A stretch of 40,241 nucleotides of DNA from Myxococcota bacterium (GTDB taxonomy: Bacteria > Myxococcota_A > Polyangia > Polyangiales > Houyiibacteriaceae): NCBI GenBank assembly GCA_025453555.1, contig JALOQC010000006.1, positions 1 to 40,241 of the forward strand, given 5' to 3'. The notes under the pieces are model-generated. The model did no database searches, was not told where the DNA came from, and saw nothing but the letters and a program-made list of their open reading frames with translations. Shown piece by piece: positions 18,395 to 30,929 of this stretch. A program made the position numbers and the translations under genes. Each line of letters starts with the position of its first letter. Position 1 is the first letter of the stretch.

Positions 18395-20008
18395 TCAGCG
18401 AAGCGCATCGCGCCACGCGCCGAGGCGGGTGATCGTGGGCGCGAAGAAGGTCGTGTCTTCGAGCGCGTACTCGTGTGTGCGTCCCGAGCGCTCTCGACGA
18501 CAGCTCTCGTCGCTCACGAGCTGACCGAGCGCTTCTTGCACCGTGCGCAGCGGCACGCCGAGCGCCTCCGCCACGTCCCGCGCGCTCGCGCGTCCGCCAT
18601 TCTCCGCGAGGAAGCGGAGCACCAGCTCTCGGAGATCGGTCGCGGTCGTCGGATCCGGGATCGCGATCGGAGCCGCGAGGCGCAGCTTCAGCGCGTCGCC
18701 CTCGCGCACGACCTCGCCGCGCGCGCCGAGCTCTTGCCGCATCCGATACAACAAGGTCCTCAGGACGCCGCCGTGCTTGTCGGGCGCGTACGCGAAGCCG
18801 TAGACGCGGCGGAACAGCTCCTCCTCCGTCGCGCTCATCGAGGGCGTCACGAGGAGCGCGACGAGCGCTGCGAGCACACGTTCGTGTTGGAGGTCGTAGC
18901 TCGCCGGGAGATCACGACCGAGCAAGCCGAGCCCCGCGACCCAAGTGCGGCGCGCCGCGCGTCCGGGCTCGGCCCACACCACCACGCCTGCGCGCTCGAG
19001 GCCGGCGCCGAGCAACGACGCGCTGCCCACGAGACCGTCCATGCCGTGTGGCGCGCGGCGCCCTTCGCCCGCGAGCCAGGCGCAGAGCTCCGCGGGCTCG
19101 GGCGCCGACGGATCGACGAGCGCTCGCACGCGCGCGCTCTCCCGCGAGAGGAACGGCCACGGCGCGAGCGCCCGAACGCCGTCGAGCCGCGCGCGATCGC
19201 CACGCGAGGCCGCATCGAGCATCGCCGCGAGCTCGTTCGACGCGGCACGCCATGCGCCCGAGCCTTCCAGTCCGACGGCGCGCGCGGCGCCCCCGACGAG
19301 CACCAGCTCCCACGCGATCCAGCCCGACCAGGCAGCCGGCGTGACGCGCGCGAGCGCGTCGAGGATGCGCGACGCGAGGTACCAGCGCGCGTCGAAGCGA
19401 CGCACCCGCGCGAGCGCGAGGTGCGCGACGTACTCCGTGACGAGGTAGCCGTCCGTGCGCGCCATGCGCGAGCCGAGGCGCGCGCGATCGCGCGCGGCGT
19501 CGAGGCGACCTTCGCTCAGCTCCGCGAGCGCGGCGATCGCTTCCGCTTCCGCGAGCAGGCCCGGGACGTCGCGAGAACGCTGCGCCGCGGCGACCAACGT
19601 CGTGACGTCGATCGCACGCTCGTGTGCGAGGTCGTCCCATGCGGCGACGATCGGATGCGCGGCGGTCGACTCGCTCGCGCGACGAACCAGCGCGAGTCGT
19701 GTCGGTTGGCCAGCGAGCCACGCGTGCAACGCGACGTCCACGAGCCCGCGCGCGAGCTCGCGAGGGTCGCCTTCCAATCGCGCGCCGGACGCGAGGCTCG
19801 CGAGCAGCGCGTCGGGGATCCCCGCGCCGCGCGATCCGGTGGCGCGAACGCGGGCCTCCTCGGAGACGAGCAGCTCGATCAGCGCGGCGGCCGCGAACGA
19901 CTTCGCATCGGTCGCAGCTCCACGCGGCGCGGACGCGAGCCGCGCGAGCGCGACGTCGAGCTCGCCGCGACGCGCGGAGTCCAGCGGCGCTTCGGTGGCG
20001 ACGTTCAT
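18395..20008 (-). CDS. Large transcriptional regulator with C-terminal winged-helix domains
   Basis: 537 residues from ATG 20008, chosen because the ATGA overlap with the kinase gene's stop (20005-20007) couples translation. The first 380 residues are an all-helical, Ala/Arg-rich region reminiscent of TPR-type repeats. Near residues 393-425 an OmpR/SARP-like winged helix is seen (EEELFRRVYGFAYAP, then VLRTLLYRMRQELGA). A second HTH lies at about 456-495 (ASARDVAEALGVPLRTVQEA), ending with a wing-like RSGRTHEYALED. This combination resembles large SARP/LAL-type activators without the ATPase. It is the last gene of an operon with the Ser/Thr kinase, its probable upstream input. The 63-bp gap to engB holds only the engB promoter. 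Confidence 0.75.
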   Translation of the reverse strand: MNVATEAPLDSARRGELDVALARLASAPRGAATDAKSFAAAALIELLVSEEARVRATGSRGAGIPDALLASLASGARLEGDPRELARGLVDVALHAWLAGQPTRLALVRRASESTAAHPIVAAWDDLAHERAIDVTTLVAAAQRSRDVPGLLAEAEAIAALAELSEGRLDAARDRARLGSRMARTDGYLVTEYVAHLALARVRRFDARWYLASRILDALARVTPAAWSGWIAWELVLVGGAARAVGLEGSGAWRAASNELAAMLDAASRGDRARLDGVRALAPWPFLSRESARVRALVDPSAPEPAELCAWLAGEGRRAPHGMDGLVGSASLLGAGLERAGVVVWAEPGRAARRTWVAGLGLLGRDLPASYDLQHERVLAALVALLVTPSMSATEEELFRRVYGFAYAPDKHGGVLRTLLYRMRQELGARGEVVREGDALKLRLAAPIAIPDPTTATDLRELVLRFLAENGGRASARDVAEALGVPLRTVQEALGQLVSDESCRRERSGRTHEYALEDTTFFAPTITRLGAWRDALR

Positions 20009-21549
20009 TCGCGAGGCCACCACGAGGTCGGAGGCAGGGAAGGGCGCGCGTCGGTGCGGGCGTCGCTGCGCGTGTCGGTGGCTTGCTCCGGCGAAGGCGC
20101 GGCGGTGCGTTTCGATCGAGCGCGCGGCGTGCGCCGGAGGCCCCGTGATTCGGACCGCGACGAGTCCGCATCGACGCCGTCCCCGGTCGCGACGACATCG
20201 CCGGTGACACCGTCACGAGCACCGACACCGACACCGACATCGACAGCCCCGACACCGACACCGACAGCCCCGACACCGACAGCCCCGACACCGACAGCCC
20301 CGACACCGACATCGACAGCCCCGACACCGACACCGACAGCCCCGACACCGACAGCCCCGACACCGACAGCCCCGACACCGACAGCCCCGACACCGACACC
20401 GTGGTCACCGACGCGTGCGCTCGCCCCTTCGACGTCCGCGTCGTCGGCGGTGTTCGGGAGCGGCGCCGAGACCACAGGCTCCCACGCCGGCTCCGACTCC
20501 CGCGTCGCTGTGATCCCCACACCCAGTCCGAGCAGCCCCAACGCTCCGATCGCCGCCGCGCGCGCGGCACGCCAACGCGTCGAACTGCGCGCGCGTTTCC
20601 TCAGCACGTCCTGAAGTCGTCGATCGCGTGCCTCTCGAACCCGCGAGCGCAAGGCAGCCCGACGATCGTCGAAGAGCTCCGCCATCAGCTCCTCGAGCCG
20701 CTCGTCCTCGTCGAGCGCGTCCTCGATCGCGCGCAGCCGCTGCGCGACCTCGCGCGCGCTCGCTGGTCGCGACTCCTTCGACTTCGCGAGCAGATCGAAG
20801 ACCAGCTCCACGAGCTCCGGGGGTGCGTCGCGGCGCAGCGCGCCGAGATCCGGCGGATCGTCCTCGACGATGCGTCGCGCGACCTCGGCGTTGGTCGTGC
20901 CTTGGTAGAGGCGCTCACCCGTGAGCAGCTCCACCAGTACGACCCCGAGCGCGAAGAGATCCGTGCGTCGATCGAGCGCACCGCCTTCGATCTGCTCCGG
21001 CGCCGTGTAGCCGACCTTGCCCTTCACCACGCCGATCGAGGTCGCGTCGCCGTGACGACGATCCGCGAGCGCGATCCCGAAATCCGTCAGCCGCACCCCA
21101 CCGTCGAAGCCGATCAACAAGTTCTGCGGCGACACGTCGCGGTGCACCACACCGAGCAGGGTGCCGTCGAGCGACTGCAGCTCGTGCACCGCGTGCAGCC
21201 CGTCGGCCGCCTGACGCATCACGTCGAGCGCGATCTCGAGCGGGATCGGCTCGCCCCCGAGACCGCGGATGAGCTCGCCCACGTGCACGCCCTCCACGAA
21301 ATCCATCACGAGGTAGGGGCCCTCGTCGTCCTCGCCGACGTCGAGCACGCCCACGACGTTCGGGTGCCGCAAGAGGCCCGCGAGCCGCGCCTCGTCGAGG
21401 AACGTCGCGCGTGTCTGCGCGTCGCGCGCGTGCGGCCGCTTCTTCACGTAGAGCCGCTCGTACGAGCCGTCGTGACGCATCACGACCTCGACGCGCCCGA
21501 GCCCGCCCTTCGCGAGCTCGAAGAGCGGCACGTAGCTCGGGGTGCTCAC
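20005..21549 (-). CDS. Membrane-linked Ser/Thr protein kinase with Gly/Val repeat tail
   Basis: 514 residues from GTG 21549, which overlaps the upstream stop as GTGA. The N-terminal kinase domain is complete: a glycine-rich start LAKGGLGRVEV (12-22), Lys in LYVKKRP (34-39), HRDVSPQN at 136-143, DFG at 156-158 and APEQ at 183-186. A single membrane helix is predicted at about 333-350 (AARAAAIGALGLLGLGVGIT). The C-terminal part holds a low-complexity Gly/Val/Ala/Asp array and a basic, Ser/Thr-rich end. The HRDVSPQN form is common in myxobacterial Pkn kinases. It sits between a TPR membrane protein and a winged-helix regulator with both junctions overlapping, so the three are expected to act in one phosphorylation pathway. 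Confidence 0.93.
   Translation of the reverse strand: MSTPSYVPLFELAKGGLGRVEVVMRHDGSYERLYVKKRPHARDAQTRATFLDEARLAGLLRHPNVVGVLDVGEDDEGPYLVMDFVEGVHVGELIRGLGGEPIPLEIALDVMRQAADGLHAVHELQSLDGTLLGVVHRDVSPQNLLIGFDGGVRLTDFGIALADRRHGDATSIGVVKGKVGYTAPEQIEGGALDRRTDLFALGVVLVELLTGERLYQGTTNAEVARRIVEDDPPDLGALRRDAPPELVELVFDLLAKSKESRPASAREVAQRLRAIEDALDEDERLEELMAELFDDRRAALRSRVREARDRRLQDVLRKRARSSTRWRAARAAAIGALGLLGLGVGITATRESEPAWEPVVSAPLPNTADDADVEGASARVGDHGVGVGAVGVGAVGVGAVGVGAVGVGVGAVDVGVGAVGVGAVGVGAVGVGVGAVDVGVGVGARDGVTGDVVATGDGVDADSSRSESRGLRRTPRARSKRTAAPSPEQATDTRSDARTDARPSLPPTSWWPRE
20219..20402 (-). repeat. In-frame tandem array encoding Gly-Val-Ala/Asp repeats
   Basis: About twelve imperfect copies of a 15-bp unit (plus strand ACCGACAGCCCCGAC) with 6-bp variants. 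All lengths are multiples of three, so the kinase's C-terminal repeat region stays in frame. Contrast this with the frame-broken array at 15012. Confidence 0.85.
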
Positions 21550-22394
21550 GGCGCGCCTCCGAGCGTCCACACGCGACCCCACACCGGATCGTCGACGCGC
21601 TCGACGTCGCGGTCCCGCCGCGAGAGGCCGATCGCGAGCCCGAGCCCGACTGCGACCACGAACGCGCCCGCGACCGAGAGAGCAACCCGTCGTCGGCGCG
21701 GCGGATCTTCGGAGAGCACGAGCGCCGGCACGTGCAGCTCCACCGCCGACGTGTCGCCCGGCTCGAGCCGGATCGCGCGCTCCACGCTCCACTCGCCCGC
21801 CGCGACGCGCACGTGGCGCGTGCCAGGATCGACGGCGACGATCACCACGCCGCTCCGGACGAGCTCGCCGTGAAGCGCGCCGTCGATGCGCACCTCCGTC
21901 GGACGATTCGTCTCCACGCGCACGCGAATCTCCGCGATCGACGCGCGCGAGGTCTCGAGCCGTTCGCGCACGATGCGCGCGCGCTCGGCAGAGAGCGCTC
22001 CGTACGCGCCGGCCGCGACCTCTGCGAAGGTCTCGCTCGCCTCGCGATGACGCCCGAGGTCCGCGAGCACGGCGCCGAGGTTGAACGCGGACTCCATGCG
22101 CGGCTCGGCGGCGAGCGACCGACGGAGGAGCCGCTCCGCGTCCGCGAGGCGACCTTCGTGGCGTGCGCGCTCGGCTTCGTCGAAGTCCGCCACCGCCGAC
22201 GCGGACACGCTCGAGGACGCGGCGCTCGAGGACGCGGCGCTCGAGGACGCGGCGCTCGAGGACGCGGCGCTCGAGGACGACCTGCCGGAGGTGCCCGATG
22301 GCGCGGCGGCTGCGCGCGGGTCTTGCGCGAACGCGGACGAGCTCGCGACCAGCGCGAGCGACGACGCGAAACAGGCTGCGCGGAAGGGCGACAC
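21546..22394 (-). CDS. Exported TPR-containing membrane protein with PEGA-like domain
   Basis: 282 residues from GTG 22394, which gives a signal peptide (SPFRAACFASSLALVASSSAFA) and lies 8 nt after a -10 element. A Ser/Ala linker encoded by five 15-bp repeats follows (about residues 36-65). Then come TPR-like helices (AERARHEGRLADAERLLRRS, ESAFNLGAVLADLGRHREAS), a PEGA-like strand region (ETNRPTEVRIDGALHG and GTRHVRVAAGEW), and a C-terminal membrane helix (VALSVAGAFVVAVGLGLAIG) with a charged tail. It heads the operon with the kinase, so it could be a periplasmic sensor or scaffold whose tail reaches the cytoplasmic kinase. The topology is inferred. Confidence 0.82.
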   Translation of the reverse strand: MSPFRAACFASSLALVASSSAFAQDPRAAAAPSGTSGRSSSSAASSSAASSSAASSSAASSSVSASAVADFDEAERARHEGRLADAERLLRRSLAAEPRMESAFNLGAVLADLGRHREASETFAEVAAGAYGALSAERARIVRERLETSRASIAEIRVRVETNRPTEVRIDGALHGELVRSGVVIVAVDPGTRHVRVAAGEWSVERAIRLEPGDTSAVELHVPALVLSEDPPRRRRVALSVAGAFVVAVGLGLAIGLSRRDRDVERVDDPVWGRVWTLGGAP

Positions 22395-22589: not shown

Positions 22590-24053
22590 ATGCAACCCTC
22601 GGCTCGACTCCTCGTCCTCGCCGCGGCCCTCGCGGTCGCGTGTGGGCAGAGCCCCAGCGACCCGACCGGCCCCGAGGTTCCCGCCCCGCCGGCGCCCACT
22701 GCGGTCCCGCTCGATCTGCCCGAGCTCGCCCTCGACGCGCAGTGCGTCGCGCTCGGGGACGACGAGCGCATCCTCGGGGTCGCGAGCGAAGGCGCGCTCT
22801 GGATCGCGACCGACGTCGCGAGCTCCTTCCGCGTGCTCACCCGCGACGGAGAGACCTCCGTCGACGTCGGCATGGCTCCGACCGTCGTGCGACCGTGGAC
22901 CGAGACCCAAGCCGCGTTCGCGGTCGGCACGCGCCTCTTCGTCCGCGAGGGCGACGGTCCGCTGAACGAGGTCGGTTGGCCGCGCGAGCTCGGGCCGATC
23001 GCGGATCTCTGTGGCGATCCACGGCGTGACGGCGCGTTCGTGATCGCGGAGGGCGAAGGCGAAGTCCCGGCGGGTCTCTACCGGCGCGCGGGCGGCGAGT
23101 GGTGGCGCTGGACCCCGCCGTGCGGATCGTTCGGGCCGGGCATGGCGCTCGTCGACGTCGCGGGCGCGTGCACGGCGGACGACGATCGTGCGTGGTTGCG
23201 CAGCGCCACTGCGCTCTACGCGATGCGCGACGACGCGCTGCACAGCTTCGATCGTGTCGACCAGGTCGCCATCGATCGGCACGTCGGCGTGGCAGCCGCG
23301 AGCGCGGGCAAGTTGCTCTTCCTGCGCGGGTCGGAGTGGAAGGAGACGCGCTTCGAAGCGGGCGCGCTCGACGCGCTCGCGGGCACCGCGGGACACCTGT
23401 GGGCGCGGGTCGGCGATCGCCTCCATCACTACGCGGACGGCACGTTCTCTCGAGCGATCCACGGCGTGCCTGGTGCGATCGAGGCGATGTACCCCGACGC
23501 CGCAGGAGGCGTCTGGCTCGCGACGGACGGACAGGTCTGCCACGCCGCACCCCGCGACGGGTGGCGCGTCGAAGGCATCCGCCCCTTCGAGCGTGTGCTC
23601 GACGCCGAGATCGCGCTGCGCGTCGTCGGCGCGGAGTCGATGCGAGTCGACGTGGACGGAGAGAACGTCCACGACGGCGCGAAGGAAGCGACGATCGCGC
23701 TCGGTGCACCGGGCTGGCATCGCGTCGACGTGCGGGCCGGCGAGCGCACGCGTCGCTTCGACGTGCTGCGCATCGATCGACACGTGCCCACCTGGGAAGA
23801 AGACGTGCGCCCGATCGCGGAGGCGCATTGCGGAGGCAGCGCGTGCCACGGCGCCGACCGCGACGACGCGACGCGCCCCGCGCTCGCCGACTACGAGAGC
23901 TGGGTCGATCTCGCGGACACGATTCGACACCGCGTGGGGGTGGTCGGCGACATGCCGCCGCCCACCGTGCGCGAGGGTTGGACCGCGGACGAAGTGACGA
24001 CGGTGGTGGCGTGGATCGCCGCTGGGATGGAGGAGCGCGATGCGAGCGAATGA
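22590..24053 (+). CDS. Lipoprotein with propeller-like region and C-terminal cytochrome-c-like domain
   Basis: 487 residues. The signal ends in LAALALAVAC-type sequence (ARLLVLAAALAVAC), so it is a lipoprotein. Residues about 40-330 alternate strands with repeated LWIATD, LFVREGDG, LLFLRGSEW and HLWARVGDRL phrases, suggesting a beta-propeller. The C-terminal 100 residues resemble the cytochrome-c-like domains found with DUF1501/DUF1592 systems: TWEEDVRPIAEAHCGGSACH, then DYESWVDLADTIRHRV, MPPP and VVAWIAAGM. The haem motif is CX4CH (CGGSACH) in place of CXXCH, with Met of MPPP as a possible axial ligand. It is the first gene of a four-gene operon and overlaps the next by 14 bp. Confidence 0.82.
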   Translation: MQPSARLLVLAAALAVACGQSPSDPTGPEVPAPPAPTAVPLDLPELALDAQCVALGDDERILGVASEGALWIATDVASSFRVLTRDGETSVDVGMAPTVVRPWTETQAAFAVGTRLFVREGDGPLNEVGWPRELGPIADLCGDPRRDGAFVIAEGEGEVPAGLYRRAGGEWWRWTPPCGSFGPGMALVDVAGACTADDDRAWLRSATALYAMRDDALHSFDRVDQVAIDRHVGVAAASAGKLLFLRGSEWKETRFEAGALDALAGTAGHLWARVGDRLHHYADGTFSRAIHGVPGAIEAMYPDAAGGVWLATDGQVCHAAPRDGWRVEGIRPFERVLDAEIALRVVGAESMRVDVDGENVHDGAKEATIALGAPGWHRVDVRAGERTRRFDVLRIDRHVPTWEEDVRPIAEAHCGGSACHGADRDDATRPALADYESWVDLADTIRHRVGVVGDMPPPTVREGWTADEVTTVVAWIAAGMEERDASE

Positions 24054-24780
24054 ACGGATGAGCTCGACGGCGAGCGCGAGCCTCGAGGTCGCAGGACGAT
24101 CGGCTTCGACGTGTCCTGGTCGTTCGGGTCGATCGGTCGTGGCCTGGCTCGGGATCCTGGTCCTCACCGCGTGCCAAGGCGCGATCGGTGGTCCCGTCGA
24201 CGACGACCCGCGCGATCCCGTCGACCCCACGGACCCGATCGACGCCGACGCGCCGATCCGCGAATCGGTCGGTGGCGCCGAGCTGGACGACGCGCGCCGC
24301 GTTCGTCGTCTGACCGCCGATCAGATCGCGCGCTCGCTCGAGGTCGCGACGGGCCAATCGTGGCGTGACTACGATCGCTTCGCGGGCGCGCTCGGCAAGC
24401 CCGACCTCGCGGAGGTCACCGACGAAGGCCTCTCGGTGAGCGTCGCGTTCGCGAAGTTGGTCGAGGACGGAGCGCGCGCGACTTGCGACGCCGCCGTGAA
24501 CGCCGACGTCGATCGACCTGCGGCCGAGCGCGTGATCCTCCGCCACGCCGGTCCCGGCGACGCGAGCTTCGAGTCCCACGTCGAGAACCTCCGCTACCTC
24601 CTGCTGCGCTTCTGGGCGGTCGAGGTCACCGAGCCGACGGACGAGCGTTTGGTTCCTTGGCTCGGGCTGCTCTCCGCGCCCCGCCGTGACGGCGAAGATC
24701 TCACGAACGCCGATCGTCTCGCGCGCTGGAAAGCCGTCTGCGTGGGTCTCTCGACTCACCCAGACTTCCTCACGTATTGA
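24040..24780 (+). CDS. Lipoprotein partner of the DUF1501/DUF1588-type system
   Basis: 246 residues; ATG 24040 lies inside the end of the upstream gene (stop 24053). The signal is unusually long, with about 33 residues before the hydrophobic core VVAWLGILVLTAC, so a later start is possible. After an Asp/Pro-rich linker, the mature protein contains RRVRRLTADQIARSLEVATG, similar to the opening of DUF1587/DUF1592-type proteins. It ends with WKAVCVGLSTHPDFLTY, which resembles the ends of planctomycete-type PSD modules. No haem motif is present. It looks like a detached N-terminal part of the large cytochrome family whose C-terminal part is the gene at 26239; that link is inferred from pattern and operon position. 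Confidence 0.78.
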   Translation: MRANERMSSTASASLEVAGRSASTCPGRSGRSVVAWLGILVLTACQGAIGGPVDDDPRDPVDPTDPIDADAPIRESVGGAELDDARRVRRLTADQIARSLEVATGQSWRDYDRFAGALGKPDLAEVTDEGLSVSVAFAKLVEDGARATCDAAVNADVDRPAAERVILRHAGPGDASFESHVENLRYLLLRFWAVEVTEPTDERLVPWLGLLSAPRRDGEDLTNADRLARWKAVCVGLSTHPDFLTY

Positions 24781-24782
24781 CC

Positions 24783-24872
24783 GGAGGGGCGTTCCGGCGC
24801 CCCTCCCCCCATCGGGCGAAGCCCGAGTGTGGCCCCCCTCCACCCACCCGTCCGCGGGGTCAGCCGCGGACG
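24783..24872. repeat. Three consecutive intercistronic hairpins
   Basis: In the 130-bp gap before the DUF1501 gene: GGAGGGGCG/CGCCCCTCC (24783-24806, perfect 9-bp stem), TCGGGC-GAA-GCCCGA (24812-24826), and CGTCCGCGG-GGTCAG-CCGCGGACG (24849-24872, perfect 9-bp stem). The third has the GGTCAG loop shared with 12374, 29837 and 34397. They could attenuate or stabilise the operon message, and look like a composite dispersed repeat. Confidence 0.75.
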
Positions 24873-24910
24873 ATGGCTCGAACCTGTTGCGTCATTGAGC
24901 GGAGAATAGC

Positions 24911-26242
24911 ATGACCGAGAAACTCCGATTCGGACGACGTGGATTCCTCGCCGGAGCGTGCGCGACCTGCGGGCTCGCCGGGGCCTCCGCGCTCGTGCCA
25001 TTCCAGCGCTTGCTGGCCGACCCGCTCCCCGAGCGACGCTTCGTCGGCTTCTACTTCTCGGGCGGCTGGGACGTGCTCTCGCACGCCGACGCGCGCGATC
25101 CGTCACGGCGTTACGGCAGCGAGCTGAACGTCGGCACCGACCTACTCCCGCCCGAGTTTCAGGACCCGATCGCCGTCAGCCTCGGTGGCCGAGAAGTGCT
25201 GTGGGGCGCCGCCATGCGCGAGCTCGTCCGCCACGCGGAGGTCGCCACGATCTTCCGCGGCGTGAACATGAACACCGTCGCGCACCCCACCGGTCGCGCG
25301 TACGTGAACACCTTCATTCCACCCGCCGGCGTCGCGGCCAAAGGTGACTCTCTCGGCACGCGCATGTCGTCCGCCGCGCGGCGCGACGACCTCGTGCTCC
25401 CGAGCGTTTCGGTCGGCATGCCCGCCTACAACCTCGCGTTCGGCCCCGAGCTCACGGGGCTCGGCCTCTCGCGCGTGACCGAGGTGCGCGACCTGCTGCG
25501 CCCGCTCGGCCCGACCTTCGACGACGACGTCGCGGCCCTCCTCGCGCAGGCTCGCGAAGAGAGTGGCTCCTGCCTCGGCCCCGCCTACACCCGCGACCGC
25601 CCCGACGCGCAGCTCGCCGAGGCGCGCGAGCGCGTGCAGGCGCTCTTCGACCGCGGCCTCGACGCGGAGCTCGACCTCACCCAACAGCCCGCGCTCCGCA
25701 CGCGCTACGGCTTCACCAACGGCGCCGACTCGCGCGACCCGCGAGTGCGCGCGGCGATCACCCACCAACTCCTCGCGACCGGTCTCACTCGCACGGTCGC
25801 GGCCACGCTGGTGGACGGAATCGATTCACACCGCGACTGGGGCACCGTCCACCCGCAGCGTCTCAAAGTCGGTTTCGACGCGATGGCGGTCCTGCTCGAC
25901 GATCTTCGCGAGACCGATCCGAACCTCGAGAGCACCACGGTGATCGCGTTCAGTGAGTTCGCGCGCACACCACGAATCAATGGCACTTCAGGCCGCGATC
26001 ACTGGTTCGCCAACTCCTTCCTCGTCTTCGGCGGGAACCTCAAGCGCGGCGTGTTCGGCGAGACGGTGGAGGACACCCTCGGCCTGCGCGCGGTCGACCC
26101 CGTGACCGGCCGCGCCGCCGAGGACGGCGTCGTCATTCGCCCCGAGCACATCGGCGCCACCCTCGCGGCCGCGGCGGGCATCGATCCCGAACCGTTCCGC
26201 TCCACCGTGCTCGACGCTTGGATCGAAGGAGGTCGCTCGTGA
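24911..26242 (+). CDS. Tat-exported DUF1501 protein
   Basis: 443 residues. ATG 24911 follows GGAG with a 6-nt gap. The N-terminus has a twin-arginine signal (RFGRRGFLAGACATCGLAGA), as is usual for DUF1501 proteins, which are exported folded. The body has the family's pattern: FVGFYFSGGWDVLSHAD, FRGVNMNTVAHPTGRAYVN, and near the C-terminus TVIAFSEFARTPRINGTSGR followed by DHW and NSFLVFGGNLK. DUF1501 belongs to the alkaline-phosphatase/sulfatase-like superfamily. In Planctomycetota and Myxococcota it is nearly always paired with haem-containing PSD/DUF1588 proteins, as here. The enzymatic role is unknown. Its last base pairs overlap the next start (GTGA). Confidence 0.92.
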   Translation: MTEKLRFGRRGFLAGACATCGLAGASALVPFQRLLADPLPERRFVGFYFSGGWDVLSHADARDPSRRYGSELNVGTDLLPPEFQDPIAVSLGGREVLWGAAMRELVRHAEVATIFRGVNMNTVAHPTGRAYVNTFIPPAGVAAKGDSLGTRMSSAARRDDLVLPSVSVGMPAYNLAFGPELTGLGLSRVTEVRDLLRPLGPTFDDDVAALLAQAREESGSCLGPAYTRDRPDAQLAEARERVQALFDRGLDAELDLTQQPALRTRYGFTNGADSRDPRVRAAITHQLLATGLTRTVAATLVDGIDSHRDWGTVHPQRLKVGFDAMAVLLDDLRETDPNLESTTVIAFSEFARTPRINGTSGRDHWFANSFLVFGGNLKRGVFGETVEDTLGLRAVDPVTGRAAEDGVVIRPEHIGATLAAAAGIDPEPFRSTVLDAWIEGGRS

Positions 26243-27864
26243 ACCGCTTCTTCCGACTCTCGATCGCGATCGGCCTGGCCTTCGTCGCGAATCCGACCTC
26301 GGCGCAGTCACCGACCGAGTGCGCGCCCACCGGCGAGATCGACGCGCTGCGTCTGTTGCGACAGACCTCGCTCGACGTGCGGGGTCGCATCCCGAGCTTC
26401 GAGGAGCTCACCGCGGTGCGCGACGCCGAGGATCCGAACGCGGAGGTCGATCGCCAACTCGGCGCGTGGCTCGCGAGCGACGACTTCTACGACGAGGTCC
26501 GCCGTCAGCACCGGCAGATCCTCTGGGGCAGCCTCGAGGAGATCGATCGATTGCGCCCGCAGGCCTACACGGTGTCGCCGCAAGACGGCATCTACCGCGC
26601 GCAAGCGCAGGCGCGACGTCGTGCGTTCCGCGGTCGCGATCTGACGTGCCTCGATCGCGAGCAGACGCAGTTCGACGCGAACGGTCGCCCGGTCCCCATC
26701 GAGCGCATCAACGGCGCCGATTGCGGCAACGTCGGCTACGGCGCGGGCATCTGCGTGCGGGAAGGCTGGGTGCGCGTGCGACCGTACTGGGATCCTTCGA
26801 CCGAGATCCGCGTCTGCGCCTTCGACGCCCAACCCCACGGCATGCGCAGCGACGGTACGCCGTGCCGCGACCTCGACACCGATCGAAACTGCGGCTGCGG
26901 CGCGGACCTTCACTGGTGTGCGTCACCGGCCGCGGAGACCGTGATGCGCGACGCGCTCGCGGACGAGCCCGCGCGCCTCTTCGAGTCGATCGTCCGCGAG
27001 GATCGCCCCTACCACGAGGCGTTCACGACGCGAGAGACACGCATCAACGGCCCCGTCGCGCACTTCCACCGCTACCTCAGCGGCGCGCCGAACGAGACCA
27101 CGATGCAGGTCGGCCTCGTCGGCTACGAGGGTCGGATGGGCGCGGTGCCGAACGTGCCCTTCGACGATCGCGAGTGGCGCACGATCGAACGCGCGGAAGG
27201 CCACGCCGGCGTGCTCACCACGCCCGGCTTTCTCCTCCGCTTCAACAGCCATCGCGCGCGCGCCAACCGCTTCTACACCGCGTTCCTCTGCGATCCCTTC
27301 GTGCCCTCCGCGACCGGCATCCCGGCCGAAGAAGAAGAGCCCGATCCGAACCTCCGCGAGCGCGCGGGCTGCGCGGATTGCCACGAGGTGCTCGAGCCCG
27401 CCGCCGCGCATTGGGGACGCTGGCGCATCAACTCCACCTTCGGCTTCTTCGACGACGCATCGCACGACTTCGCGAGCCCGCTCGCGAGCTGCCGCTGCGG
27501 CGGCCCCGGGCAGCCGAACTGCAGCGCGTACTGCAACACCTACTTCGTCACGGGCGCGAACTCGCACGCGAGCACCTACGCCGAGTACGGCGGACTGCCG
27601 CTCGCGTCGATCTACCTCGCGGACGACGAGCTCCGCGCGGTCGACCTCGGACCCGCTGCGCTCCTCGACGAAGAAGCCGAGATCCGACAGCTCGGTGTCT
27701 GCGCGACGCGCACCCTCGCCGAGCGCTTCCTCGGTCGCCCCGTCGAGCCCTCGGAGGCGCAGTGGCTCCAAGACCGCGTCGACGCGTTCCAAGAGTCGGA
27801 GTGGAGCTACGCCGCGCTCGTCGAAGCGATCGCTCGCGATCCGAAGTACCGCGCGATTCGCTGA
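26239..27864 (+). CDS. Secreted DUF1588/DUF1585-like haem protein
   Basis: 541 residues from GTG 26239, overlapping the DUF1501 stop and preceded by a perfect AAGGAGG 6 nt upstream. The signal peptide is NRFFRLSIAIGLAFVANPTSA. A DUF1549-like opening follows (SLDVRGRIPSFEELTAV), then a Cys-rich middle (NCGCGADLHWC). The DUF1588-like part is GVLTTPGFLLRFNSHRARAN, FYTAFLCDPFVP, and RAGCADCHEVLEPAAAHW with a canonical CXXCH haem motif near residue 380. The end resembles DUF1585 (LGVCATRTLAERFLGRPVEP, YAALVEAIARDPKYRAI). It is the last gene of the operon and converges with the esterase gene across 7 bp. Confidence 0.87.
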   Translation: MNRFFRLSIAIGLAFVANPTSAQSPTECAPTGEIDALRLLRQTSLDVRGRIPSFEELTAVRDAEDPNAEVDRQLGAWLASDDFYDEVRRQHRQILWGSLEEIDRLRPQAYTVSPQDGIYRAQAQARRRAFRGRDLTCLDREQTQFDANGRPVPIERINGADCGNVGYGAGICVREGWVRVRPYWDPSTEIRVCAFDAQPHGMRSDGTPCRDLDTDRNCGCGADLHWCASPAAETVMRDALADEPARLFESIVREDRPYHEAFTTRETRINGPVAHFHRYLSGAPNETTMQVGLVGYEGRMGAVPNVPFDDREWRTIERAEGHAGVLTTPGFLLRFNSHRARANRFYTAFLCDPFVPSATGIPAEEEEPDPNLRERAGCADCHEVLEPAAAHWGRWRINSTFGFFDDASHDFASPLASCRCGGPGQPNCSAYCNTYFVTGANSHASTYAEYGGLPLASIYLADDELRAVDLGPAALLDEEAEIRQLGVCATRTLAERFLGRPVEPSEAQWLQDRVDAFQESEWSYAALVEAIARDPKYRAIR

Positions 27865-27871
27865 GCGAGTC

Positions 27872-29341
27872 TCAGCGGGACCCGCAGGGCCCGATCGCGA
27901 AGTACCCGCTCGGCTCTTCGCGAAGCGTGGTGGTCGCGAAGGTGTTCCAGAGGCCCATCGACTCGCCGGAGCCGTTCGCACAGACGTAGGAACGGAAGCT
28001 CCCGCAGCGCGTGCCGCGCCCGGCGCGCTCGTGCGCGTAGTTCGACGAGGTGTGCTCCACGCACGTGCTCGGCGCATTCGCGTCGGAGCCTGCATCCGCG
28101 CTTGCCGCGTCACGCACGGAATCCGTGCCCGAATCGACGAGACCCGCATCGACGCCCGCGTCGCGCCCCGCATCGACGCCTGCGTCGCGTCCGGCATCGA
28201 CGCCCGCGTCGCGCCCCGCGCCCGCGTCGCGTCCGGCATCGACACCGACGCTCGCGTCGACGCTCGGCACGCCGCCGTCCGAGCTCGGCGTGCCCTCGAG
28301 CAGCCCGAAGAAGCGCGCCTGCTCGCGCGCCGCGCAAACGTCCACGTCGACCGCGAACGCGCCCGTCGCGCCACACGACGGCGGATCGATCGCGACCGCG
28401 TGTCCCGCGCCCGGCAGCGTCCAGCTCTCGACCCGCACGCTCGCGCCGTCGAGGTGCCGCGTGCGCACGAGCGCCGCGACCGTGGCGCTCTCGTCCGGCA
28501 TCGCGTCGATGCCGTTCAAGCTCGTGAACTGTTCGACGAGTTCCTCCGCGTTCCTCGGGCGCACCGTGAAGTCCGACGTGCCCTGCCAGACGGAAAGCCG
28601 CGGCCACGGGCCCGCCCATCCGCTCGGTCCGTTCGCGCGCGCTCGCGCCGCCCAATCGCTGCCGCTTCGATCCACGTTGCCGTTCTGGCAGTCGAACGCG
28701 TTCGAGACGCCGGTCGCGCAGCCGACCGGGAGCCCGGAGTGCGCGGCGCCGGCCGCGAACACGTCGGGGTAGGCGGCGAGAAGCGCCGGCGCCATGCCAC
28801 CGCCCGCGGAGAAGCCCGCCGCGAAGACACGCGCGTCGTCGATCGCGAAGCGGCTCTTCACGTGGCTCACCATCGACGCGATCGACGCGACCTCACCCGA
28901 GCCACGTCGCACGTGGGCGGGCTCGAACCAGCGGAAGCACGACGCGCCGTTGTTCGATGAAGTCTGCTGCGGATAGATCACGTAGAAGCCCGCTTGGTCC
29001 GCGATCGTGCTCCAACCGGTGCGCTCGATGTCTGCCGCGCTCTGTGTGCATCCGTGCAGCGCGACGACCACTGCGGCCGGGCTCGCGGGGCGCGCGGGCG
29101 CGTAGAGCCACATCCGCAGGCCACCTGGGTTGCTGCCGAAGGACGAGACCTCCGTGAGCTCACCGCTCGACGAGCCCGACGCTTCTTCGGTCGCGCACGC
29201 GCACGCGATCACACCCACGATCAGACACGCAATCGTGAGCGGTCGTGCGTACCTGCGCGGAGTTGGTGCCTGCGAGCCGGGGCGCCGATCGCTCTCGACG
29301 CACGCGTTCGCTCGAAGCTCGATTCGTTCACGTCCGCTCAT
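27872..29341 (-). CDS. PHB-depolymerase/feruloyl-esterase-like secreted lipoprotein
   Basis: 489 residues from ATG 29341, supported by GGAGGAGGGG 4 nt upstream. The hydrophobic signal TIACLIVGVIACAC contains a lipobox. The esterase domain (about 70-325) has the LpqC/PHB-depolymerase layout: VVVALHGCTQSAADIE (oxyanion hole), nucleophile FAAGFSAGGGMAPALLA, Asp in WQGTSDFTV and His in PGAGHAVAID. After it comes a linker of repeated DAGRDAGV units (DNA about 28130-28260), then a small Cys-containing C-terminal domain (CVEHTSSNYAHERAGRGTRC, CANGSG) that may bind substrate or the cell surface. It overlaps the acyl-CoA ligase gene by 14 bp and ends the minus-strand operon. Confidence 0.88.
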   Translation of the reverse strand: MSGRERIELRANACVESDRRPGSQAPTPRRYARPLTIACLIVGVIACACATEEASGSSSGELTEVSSFGSNPGGLRMWLYAPARPASPAAVVVALHGCTQSAADIERTGWSTIADQAGFYVIYPQQTSSNNGASCFRWFEPAHVRRGSGEVASIASMVSHVKSRFAIDDARVFAAGFSAGGGMAPALLAAYPDVFAAGAAHSGLPVGCATGVSNAFDCQNGNVDRSGSDWAARARANGPSGWAGPWPRLSVWQGTSDFTVRPRNAEELVEQFTSLNGIDAMPDESATVAALVRTRHLDGASVRVESWTLPGAGHAVAIDPPSCGATGAFAVDVDVCAAREQARFFGLLEGTPSSDGGVPSVDASVGVDAGRDAGAGRDAGVDAGRDAGVDAGRDAGVDAGLVDSGTDSVRDAASADAGSDANAPSTCVEHTSSNYAHERAGRGTRCGSFRSYVCANGSGESMGLWNTFATTTLREEPSGYFAIGPCGSR

Positions 29342-30929
29342 GGTTCCCCTCCTCCACGATCGTCCGCAGCGCGGCGCGATCCGTCTTCCCCGTCGCCGTA
29401 CGCGGCAACGCGTCGAGCGCGCGCCAATGGCGCGGGATCTCGTAGCCGGCGAGATGCGCACGCGACCACGCGCGCAGCGCTTCGTCGCTCGGACGCGCCA
29501 CGTCTTCGCGCAGCACGAAGCACGCGAGCCCGACCTCGCCCCAGCGCGCGTCGGGCACCGGCACCACCGCGACCTCCGCGAACGCCGGATGCATCGCGAG
29601 CGCAGCGGCCACCGCGGCCGGGTACACGTTCTCTCCCCCGGATACGAACATGTCCTTCTTGCGATCCACGACGGCGAAGAAGCCGTCCTCGTCGCGCACG
29701 AGCACGTCGCCGGTGTGGAAGTAGCCATCCGCGTCGAGCACCTGCGCCGTCAGCTCGGGCGCGCGGAAGTAGCCCGTCGTCACGGCGGGACCACGCAGCC
29801 AGAGCTCGCCCGGCTCGTTCGCGTCGCACTCGGATCCGTCGGCGGCTGACCCCGTCGACTCGAAGGATCCGTCGCGCACGAGCCGCGCCTCCAGATGGAA
29901 CGTCGGCACACCGACCGTGCCGAAGCGATGCGGCCCGTCGAGTGGCGAGAGCGTGAAGCAGTTCGGCCCGACTTCGGTGAGCCCGTAGCCCTGCCGCATC
30001 GGCAGTCCCGCGTCGTGGAAGCGTTCGTGCAGCGCGCGCGAGAGCGGCGCGCCTCCACACAGGAGCGCGCGCAGGTGGGGCTGCGCGTGCAGGCCGGCCG
30101 CGAGCAACGACTCGTACATCGTCGGCACCGCGATCGTCGTCGTCACGTCGCCGCGGTGGAGCAGCGCGACCTCGCGCTCCGCGTCGAAGCCGGGCGTCAG
30201 CACGATCGATCCGCCGCGGTGCAGGAGCGGCGTCGCGAGGCAATGCAGCCCGCCGGTGTGAAAGAGAGGCAGACACGCGAGCGCACGATCGTGCTCGGTC
30301 AGCCCCGCCGCGAGCGCGGTGCTCACCGCGTTGAAGACGACCTGTCGCCACGTGATGCACACGCCCTTCGGCGCGGCGGTGGTGCCGCTGGTGTACAGGA
30401 CGAGCGGCACGTCCTCGAGCGCGACGTCGCCGTACCGCGCCGCGCCGAGGAGCGACTCGTACGCGACGTCCTCACCGCGCGCGCGACGGTCCCCGAGCGC
30501 GATCCCTCGCGGCGTGACGCGAGTGGTTCCGTTCGTTTCCCACGCGGAAGGCTCCGTGATCGACGCGTGCGCGAGCAGCTCGTGCGCGAGCTCGACGAAG
30601 GTGTCGTCGTAGACGACCGCGGCCGGCTCCGCGCTCGCCACGATCGCGCGCAGCTTCGTGAGCGGCTGCCGCGTGTTGAGCGGCACGAGCGTGAGCTTCG
30701 CGCGTGCACAGGCGAAGAGCAGCTCGAAGACCTCTGCGCGCCCTTCGCTCACCAGCGCGATGCGCGCGCCGGTGGGCAACGTCGCCGCGAGCCCCGCTGC
30801 GATCCGCGCGGCACGATCATCGAGCGAGCCATACGTCCAAGCCCGCGCGCCACGAGTCGCCGACGCGACCTCTTCGATCGCGATTCGATCAGGTGCGATC
30901 GAGGCCCACCGACGCAGGAAGTCGTGCAT
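29328..30929 (-). CDS. Acyl-CoA ligase (AMP-binding family, MenE/fatty-acid-CoA-ligase-like)
   Basis: 533 residues from ATG 30929, 8 nt after the OMP gene's stop with GAGG upstream. ANL-family motifs in order: VLYTSGTTAAPKGVCI (P-loop), YGLTEVGP, DGYFHTGD, VVDRKKDMFVSGGENVYPA, and a C-terminal Lys in LPRTATGKTDRAALR. It should activate a carboxylic acid to its CoA thioester through an acyl-AMP. It has no signal peptide, so it is cytoplasmic and would act on acids released outside and imported. Between EARLVRD and ANEPGELWLRGP it carries an insertion (GSFESTGSAADGS...) that coincides with a copy of the 33-bp dispersed hairpin element. The exact substrate, fatty, hydroxy or aromatic, is not readable. 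Confidence 0.92.
   Translation of the reverse strand: MHDFLRRWASIAPDRIAIEEVASATRGARAWTYGSLDDRAARIAAGLAATLPTGARIALVSEGRAEVFELLFACARAKLTLVPLNTRQPLTKLRAIVASAEPAAVVYDDTFVELAHELLAHASITEPSAWETNGTTRVTPRGIALGDRRARGEDVAYESLLGAARYGDVALEDVPLVLYTSGTTAAPKGVCITWRQVVFNAVSTALAAGLTEHDRALACLPLFHTGGLHCLATPLLHRGGSIVLTPGFDAEREVALLHRGDVTTTIAVPTMYESLLAAGLHAQPHLRALLCGGAPLSRALHERFHDAGLPMRQGYGLTEVGPNCFTLSPLDGPHRFGTVGVPTFHLEARLVRDGSFESTGSAADGSECDANEPGELWLRGPAVTTGYFRAPELTAQVLDADGYFHTGDVLVRDEDGFFAVVDRKKDMFVSGGENVYPAAVAAALAMHPAFAEVAVVPVPDARWGEVGLACFVLREDVARPSDEALRAWSRAHLAGYEIPRHWRALDALPRTATGKTDRAALRTIVEEGNHERT
29832..29873 (-). repeat. 33-bp dispersed hairpin element inside the ligase gene
   Basis: GGATCCGTCG recurs at 29832 and 29865, so the period is 33 bp, as in the array at 12367. 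The stretch CCGTCGGCGGCTGACCCCG (29836-29854) is also present at 12373. The gene reads the element from the strand opposite to that used at 12367, giving GSAADGS instead of DPSAADP, and the insertion keeps frame. Confidence 0.8.

Follow-up and report, generated by a model that had tools for sequence, protein, structure and literature searches.

A conserved Myxococcota gene cluster with an apparently split PSC-type cytochrome, a propeller cytochrome lipoprotein and a DUF1501 protein

Contig JALOQC010000006.1 of a bacterium of the order Polyangiales (Myxococcota) carries four consecutive plus-strand genes, here called g1 to g4, between positions 22590 and 27864 of the analysed window, i.e. the whole stretch of 40,241 nucleotides (nt). 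They represent a conserved, uncharacterised gene set whose split form with a propeller cytochrome is new, while its general kind, a planctomycete-specific cytochrome c (PSC) with a DUF1501 protein, is already known. An earlier reading of the DNA without database searches (the sequence-only reading) had described the genes as overlapping or closely spaced. This applies to g1 and g2, which share 14 nt, and to g3 and g4, which share 4 nt, but not to g2 and g3, which lie 130 nt apart in the window. The latter spacing is far smaller in most relatives, and the gap results from a dispersed repeat that occupies it (Table 1). Eight further copies of this element of about 90 bp, with 93-99% identity, are found in the same genome, and a 24-bp part of it is repeated every 33-34 bp in arrays on contigs C326, C118, C56 and C75.

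Table 1. Features of the four-gene cluster, in positions of the 40,241-nt window.
Feature	Position	Strand	Basis
g1, lipoprotein with propeller-like N-terminal part and C-terminal cytochrome c domain	22590..24053	+	lipobox, CX4CH, Met455
haem c motif CX4CH (CGGSACH) of g1	23829..23849	+	Cys/Cys/His invariant in 19/19
g2, small lipoprotein, predicted separate tail module of PSC cytochrome	24040..24780	+	profile match to fused C-termini
dispersed GC-rich palindromic repeat between g2 and g3	24783..24872		eight other genome copies
g3, Tat-exported DUF1501 protein	24911..26242	+	PF07394 match, RR motif
g4, Sec-exported PSC-type cytochrome core	26239..27864	+	PSCyt2-like start, DUF1592/DUF1588/DUF1585-like rest
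haem c motif CXXCH (CADCH) of g4	27370..27384	+	kept across g4 family

The propeller lipoprotein with a CX4CH motif that had been read from g1 is confirmed by a lipobox (LAVAC, C18) and the motif itself, with weak, sub-threshold Pfam matches to propeller and cytochrome families. Likewise, g3 is a DUF1501 protein by profile score (77.7 bits against PF07394, cut-off 27 bits) and carries RR at residues 9-10, the motif for export by twin-arginine translocation (Tat), in agreement with the first reading. The other two assignments stood in part. In g4, the expected CXXCH is present, whereas the DUF1588 and DUF1585 matches of the window protein are sub-threshold, as are those to DUF1592 and PSCyt2; with 16.9 bits against a cut-off of 29.8, g4 falls short of PSCyt2 membership, and PSD1 is not listed for it. 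The protein probably starts with GTG at 26239, a TTG at 26218 being an unlikely start, and continues with a Sec-type signal. The DUF1587/1592-like opening ascribed to g2 is recovered by profile comparison but not by a Pfam scan of the window protein, in which g2 alone hits no family. Its lipobox (LTAC) lies at residue 45, and Cys149 and Cys234 are invariant in its family. An NCBIfam search of all four proteins added nothing decisive to Pfam, and sequence searches of the PDB revealed nothing convincing for g2, g3 or g4, with marginal matches of ApcE linkers to the g4 C-terminus (E 0.008).

Two partly overlapping sets of loci were used to follow the cluster through its relatives: 40 extracted regions on which the profiles were built, and 80 named loci that a search with just g4 gave in a collection of 84,980 species. 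Single-sequence searches of 183 genomes of the order gave homologues of g4 in 86, of g2 in 58 and of g1 in 20, and the strongest g2 and g4 matches share contigs and lie a few kb apart. Of the 40 extracted regions, 39 contain g2, g3 and g4 together, L141 being without g3; g1 is present in 32, or in 33 if the window is counted. The named loci hold g2 in 74, g3 in 73 and g1 in 65 of 80 cases; several that lack a member are cut by contig ends, and g2 is present in every one whose cluster no contig end cuts. Hence, the genes behave as one unit, and the scattering in relatives that would have spoken against a common system was not seen. The most frequent order in this second set is g1-g4-g2-g3 (34 loci), followed by the order of the window (about 13), g4-g2-g3 without g1 (12), g4-g2-g3 with a divergent g1 (8) and g4-g2-g3-g1 (3). 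By title, nearly all named loci belong to Myxococcota, some being labelled just 'bacterium' or as 'Deltaproteobacteria' metagenome-assembled genomes (MAGs) and one as Rhodobacterales; carriers include Minicystis rosea, Polyangium species, Sorangium cellulosum So ce26, Paraliomyxa miuraensis and Archangium MAGs. One genome (G112; several contigs, e.g. loci L135, L136, L137 and L173) contains eight g2 and eight g4 matches, suggesting an expansion of the cluster.

Both haem motifs noticed at first sight are family-conserved. Of the g4 sequences, 43 of 44 in the first set and 81 of 82 in the second keep CXXCH, and the single first-set protein without it is an N-terminal fragment; g1 retains a haem motif in 32 of 33 and 66 of 67 sequences, respectively, with CX5CH in the first-set exception (L122). 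CX4CH is a variant of the clade of the window, and most g1 relatives have CXXCH. Such motifs appear in only 0.3% (CX4CH, g1) and 1.2% (CXXCH, g4) of shuffled versions of the proteins, and their retention across the families excludes chance as an explanation. As conserved CXnCH motifs in exported proteins, they mark g1 and g4 as predicted c-type cytochromes, and the genome encodes cytochrome c assembly proteins. In g1, Met455 and both Cys and the His of the motif are invariant in 19/19 aligned sequences, the pattern expected of a cytochrome with putative His/Met ligation. g4 has eight further invariant Cys, including a CGCG motif, and its family matches PSCyt2 in 39 of 40 members, PSD2 in 23, PSD4 in 21 and PSCyt3 in 9, with a weak DUF1800 match in just 2.

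The sequence-only reading had further proposed that the usual large cytochrome is divided here into a lipoprotein and a second half without an anchor, and had called for a comparison with fused relatives. These were found: 15 relatives of the same order encode a single chain of about 560-940 residues, with a g4-like part followed by a g2-like tail, beside a gene of the DUF1501 family. Profile comparison relates the g4 family to the fused core with 99.9% probability and the g2 family to the fused tail with 97.7-98.4% (98.4% over 167 columns), and the g2 profile picks up the tail in 11 of the 15 chains individually. Concatenated g4 and g2 align with the full length of the fused chain (E 5e-46) and score 383.5, as compared with 296.6 for g4 alone. 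The split is thus real, with a lipobox on g2 and a Sec-type signal on g4. Its halves are unequal, as the haem and most of the core reside on g4; g2, a module without haem and about 190 residues long, corresponds to the C-terminal tail, not the head, of the fused DUF1501-associated chains. Alternatively, g2 could be an accessory lipoprotein that merely resembles this tail, next to an unsplit cytochrome that is complete in g4, given that g4 alone spans PSCyt2 to DUF1585 and shows no similarity to g2. The strength of the match to the fused C-termini, the presence of g2 in all named loci with an uncut cluster and the use of the same sequence as a core-chain domain in 15 relatives make this improbable. 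An origin of g2 as a duplicate of g4 was rejected (0.5% probability).

In a DUF1501 tree rooted on the canonical pairs, the fused forms constitute one clade (99/93), and the gene order of the window forms another (100/100) inside the split forms, i.e. this order arose once. A divergent split group is basal (95/77 for the rest), so that two splits or one split plus one re-fusion would both be compatible with the tree. In four clusters of divergent split type (L167, L169, L170 and L172), the g2 homologue itself bears an N-terminal CXXCH. A second haem is otherwise positioned at the N-terminus of the fused core, where 12 of the 15 chains begin with a cytochrome c domain, or on g1 in most other clusters. 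The second haem module is hence usually kept but shifts between chains, which is a tendency rather than a rule. Homology of the g1 cytochrome with the N-terminal cytochrome of the fused chains was rejected, since the two align at the haem motif only (23 columns); at best, g1 thus stands in for that domain functionally. RoxC, a rubber-oxygenase-like lipoprotein (NF051462), has an additional haem domain at its N-terminus, and the N-terminal haem domain of the fused proteins (L154, L156 and similar) matches it. The oxygenase core of RoxC, in contrast, is unmatched by g4 or the fused chains, and a reading as rubber oxygenase was discarded with the match confined to this domain. Two RoxCs that were expressed showed no rubber cleavage (PMC10837239).

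In the partner protein g3, RR and D54, T122, H125, D305, H307, D363 and H364 are invariant in 34/34 sequences. We take DUF1501 to belong to the alkaline-phosphatase superfamily, following its Pfam clan, and the Asp/His/Thr set fits putative metal ligands of the type found in enzymes of this superfamily. It is conceivable that DUF1501 instead has a structural or chaperone-like role without hydrolase activity, in an envelope module for electron transfer or respiration whose two cytochromes feed an acceptor outside the cell or in the periplasm. The two conserved haems, of which one is of the His/Met electron-transfer type, would suit such a module, as would the propeller fold of g1, a fold common in docking proteins. 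A scaffold, however, would have no need for the Asp/His/Thr residues that are kept throughout, and related DUF1592-type proteins use DUF1552, a partner with a conserved HXXSHH motif. We therefore regard a pure electron-transfer module as unlikely.

Taken together, the whole is best explained by one envelope complex of all four proteins built around a split PSC-cytochrome/DUF1501 pair, an account to which we would assign about an even chance. g2 and g4 would be exported separately and re-assemble outside the cytoplasm as one PSC-type cytochrome core, held to the membrane by the lipid anchor of g2. The invariant c-type haem of g4 would then serve as the redox or catalytic centre of the core, to or from which the second, His/Met-ligated haem of g1 could pass electrons. 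The same substrate would carry an anionic group, sulfated or phosphorylated, that DUF1501 binds and probably cleaves. The leading candidate for this substrate may be a polysaccharide or glycoconjugate, itself a tentative and rather doubtful choice. The extracytoplasmic location, the two c-type haem motifs and the partner with invariant Asp/His/Thr residues are consistent with an envelope redox enzyme coupled to a hydrolase of the alkaline-phosphatase superfamily, and the redox or polymer-modifying function suggested by the first reading may hold in this sense.

Several observations weigh against this account. About nine clusters that no contig end cuts have no evident second cytochrome, and no carbohydrate gene or enzyme was seen recurring beside the clusters. 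The alkaline-phosphatase assignment of DUF1501 draws on the Pfam clan and the motif pattern, and direct profile comparison with roughly aligned sulfatases is weak (8.5% probability). Finally, g4 has no invariant distal haem ligand (His322 in 33/40), so that its haem may be either catalytic or electron-transferring.

A further possibility is that the cluster serves maintenance of the cell's own envelope or a stress response, rather than breakdown of a nutrient polymer, in analogy to Rhodopirellula RB10051 (PSD1+PSC2), which was proposed to stand under a stress-induced extracytoplasmic function (ECF) factor (PMC2754498). No stress regulator was seen recurring beside the cluster, and this explanation appears quite unlikely. 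Among the neighbours that do recur in the named loci are kinase-type genes (12 of 80) and an FG-GAP-repeat lipoprotein (14 of 80; e.g. L199:253-4374), which is mostly transcribed divergently a few hundred bases upstream. In the window itself, the convergent gene downstream (27872-29728, minus strand) encodes a protein with a match to extracellular depolymerases of short-chain polyhydroxyalkanoates and with Asp/Ala/Gly-rich repeats at its end; upstream, a minus-strand gene (20005-21684) encodes a Ser/Thr kinase followed by a long repeat tail of the (VGVGAVG)n type.

Genes for PSC proteins are known to adjoin two families of unknown function (PMC5615132, PMC2754498). They often lie near sulfatases, and some of the proteins carry carbohydrate-binding modules (PMC5615132). 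R. baltica has 41 copies each of PSD1 and PSC2, for which a link to stress was suggested (PMC2754498). The label of an undescribed system thus has to be given up in favour of a variant of these published, uncharacterised PSC-cytochrome and DUF1501/DUF1552 genes (PMC5615132, PMC2754498); the split form itself was found described nowhere in the searched literature, which comprised open-licence papers only. DUF1501 is also found together with DUF1800 in operons whose products have Tat signals, for example next to bacterial chitin synthases (PMC5122149). These share a Tat-exported DUF1501 protein with a fixed operon partner, but there is no DUF1800 gene here, the adjacent partner being g4.

Two architectures come closer. 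The pair of PSCyt2-PSD1 (DUF1549-DUF1553) and DUF1501 is known from Planctomycetes and Verrucomicrobia, and canonical DUF1549-DUF1553 proteins with DUF1501 neighbours occur in some genomes of the order. With this pair the cluster shares a PSCyt2-like start, CXXCH, the DUF1501 neighbour and an uncharacterised function, and the end of g4 resembles the N-half of DUF1553 (95.8%) and g2 its C-half. It differs in its two chains, the lipoprotein nature of g2, a Cys-rich insert in g4, the extra propeller cytochrome g1, window proteins below Pfam cut-offs and a DUF1553 C-half-like module that is carried on g2 instead of the PSCyt2 chain. In the PSCyt3 type (DUF1587-DUF1595-DUF1592-DUF1588-DUF1585), g4 corresponds to the DUF1592-1588-1585 part (99.3%, E 8e-21) and g2 to DUF1587-DUF1595; here, however, these parts are separate genes, and the partner is DUF1501, not the DUF1552 that accompanied the DUF1592-type genes examined. 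The genome of the window itself has 12 DUF1587 (DUF1592-type) matches (contigs C623, C168, C467 and others), and two DUF1592-type genes adjoin DUF1552 in a congeneric relative.

This double resemblance raises the question of how the two architectures relate. Against the DUF1553 C-half, g2 aligns end to end with a score of 29.3 (column-shuffled null 12.2 +/- 1.9, max 16.5), or globally with 24.1 against 2.1 +/- 1.9; as the probability itself is low (21%), the case relies on the null and the end-to-end order. Against the N-terminal DUF1587-DUF1595, g2 again aligns end to end with 34.6 and 49% (null 13.8 +/- 2.4, max 18.4), and unrelated families score 9-23 against g2, the top one via the signal peptide. 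Moreover, concatenated g4 and g2 score 194.1 across the junction of a doubled DUF1592-type profile, compared with 166.3 +/- 0.6 for shuffled second copies. End-to-end matches and junction crossing are what circular permutation predicts. The fused chain gave no significant result in the same comparison (184.1 versus 178.2 +/- 1.9, max 186, for shuffles), and its C-terminus alone was negative against the DUF1587 region, so that the case depends on g2 and g4. From these profiles, the two known architectures are probably, or at least possibly, related by circular permutation, with their halves present in this cluster as separate proteins. The more explicit model, in which DUF1549-DUF1553/DUF1501 and DUF1587...DUF1585/DUF1552 are permuted forms of a single two-part protein whose parts remain separate, self-assembling exported proteins in the Myxococcota clusters, seems to us a serious possibility somewhat short of even.

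Few unexplained gene families of Planctomycetes are as strongly amplified as PSC/PSD with DUF1501 or DUF1552. In the split form the parts are small and separate, with lipid anchors on two; they can be expressed and mixed for re-assembly, which opens the domain boundaries, the need for haem and the part played by DUF1501 to direct tests. The likely permutation would unite two groups of DUFs now handled as separate families. If it is true, many genes of 'unknown function' in Planctomycetes, Verrucomicrobia and Myxococcota would belong to a single enzyme system whose second haem module is mobile and whose partner is alkaline-phosphatase-like.

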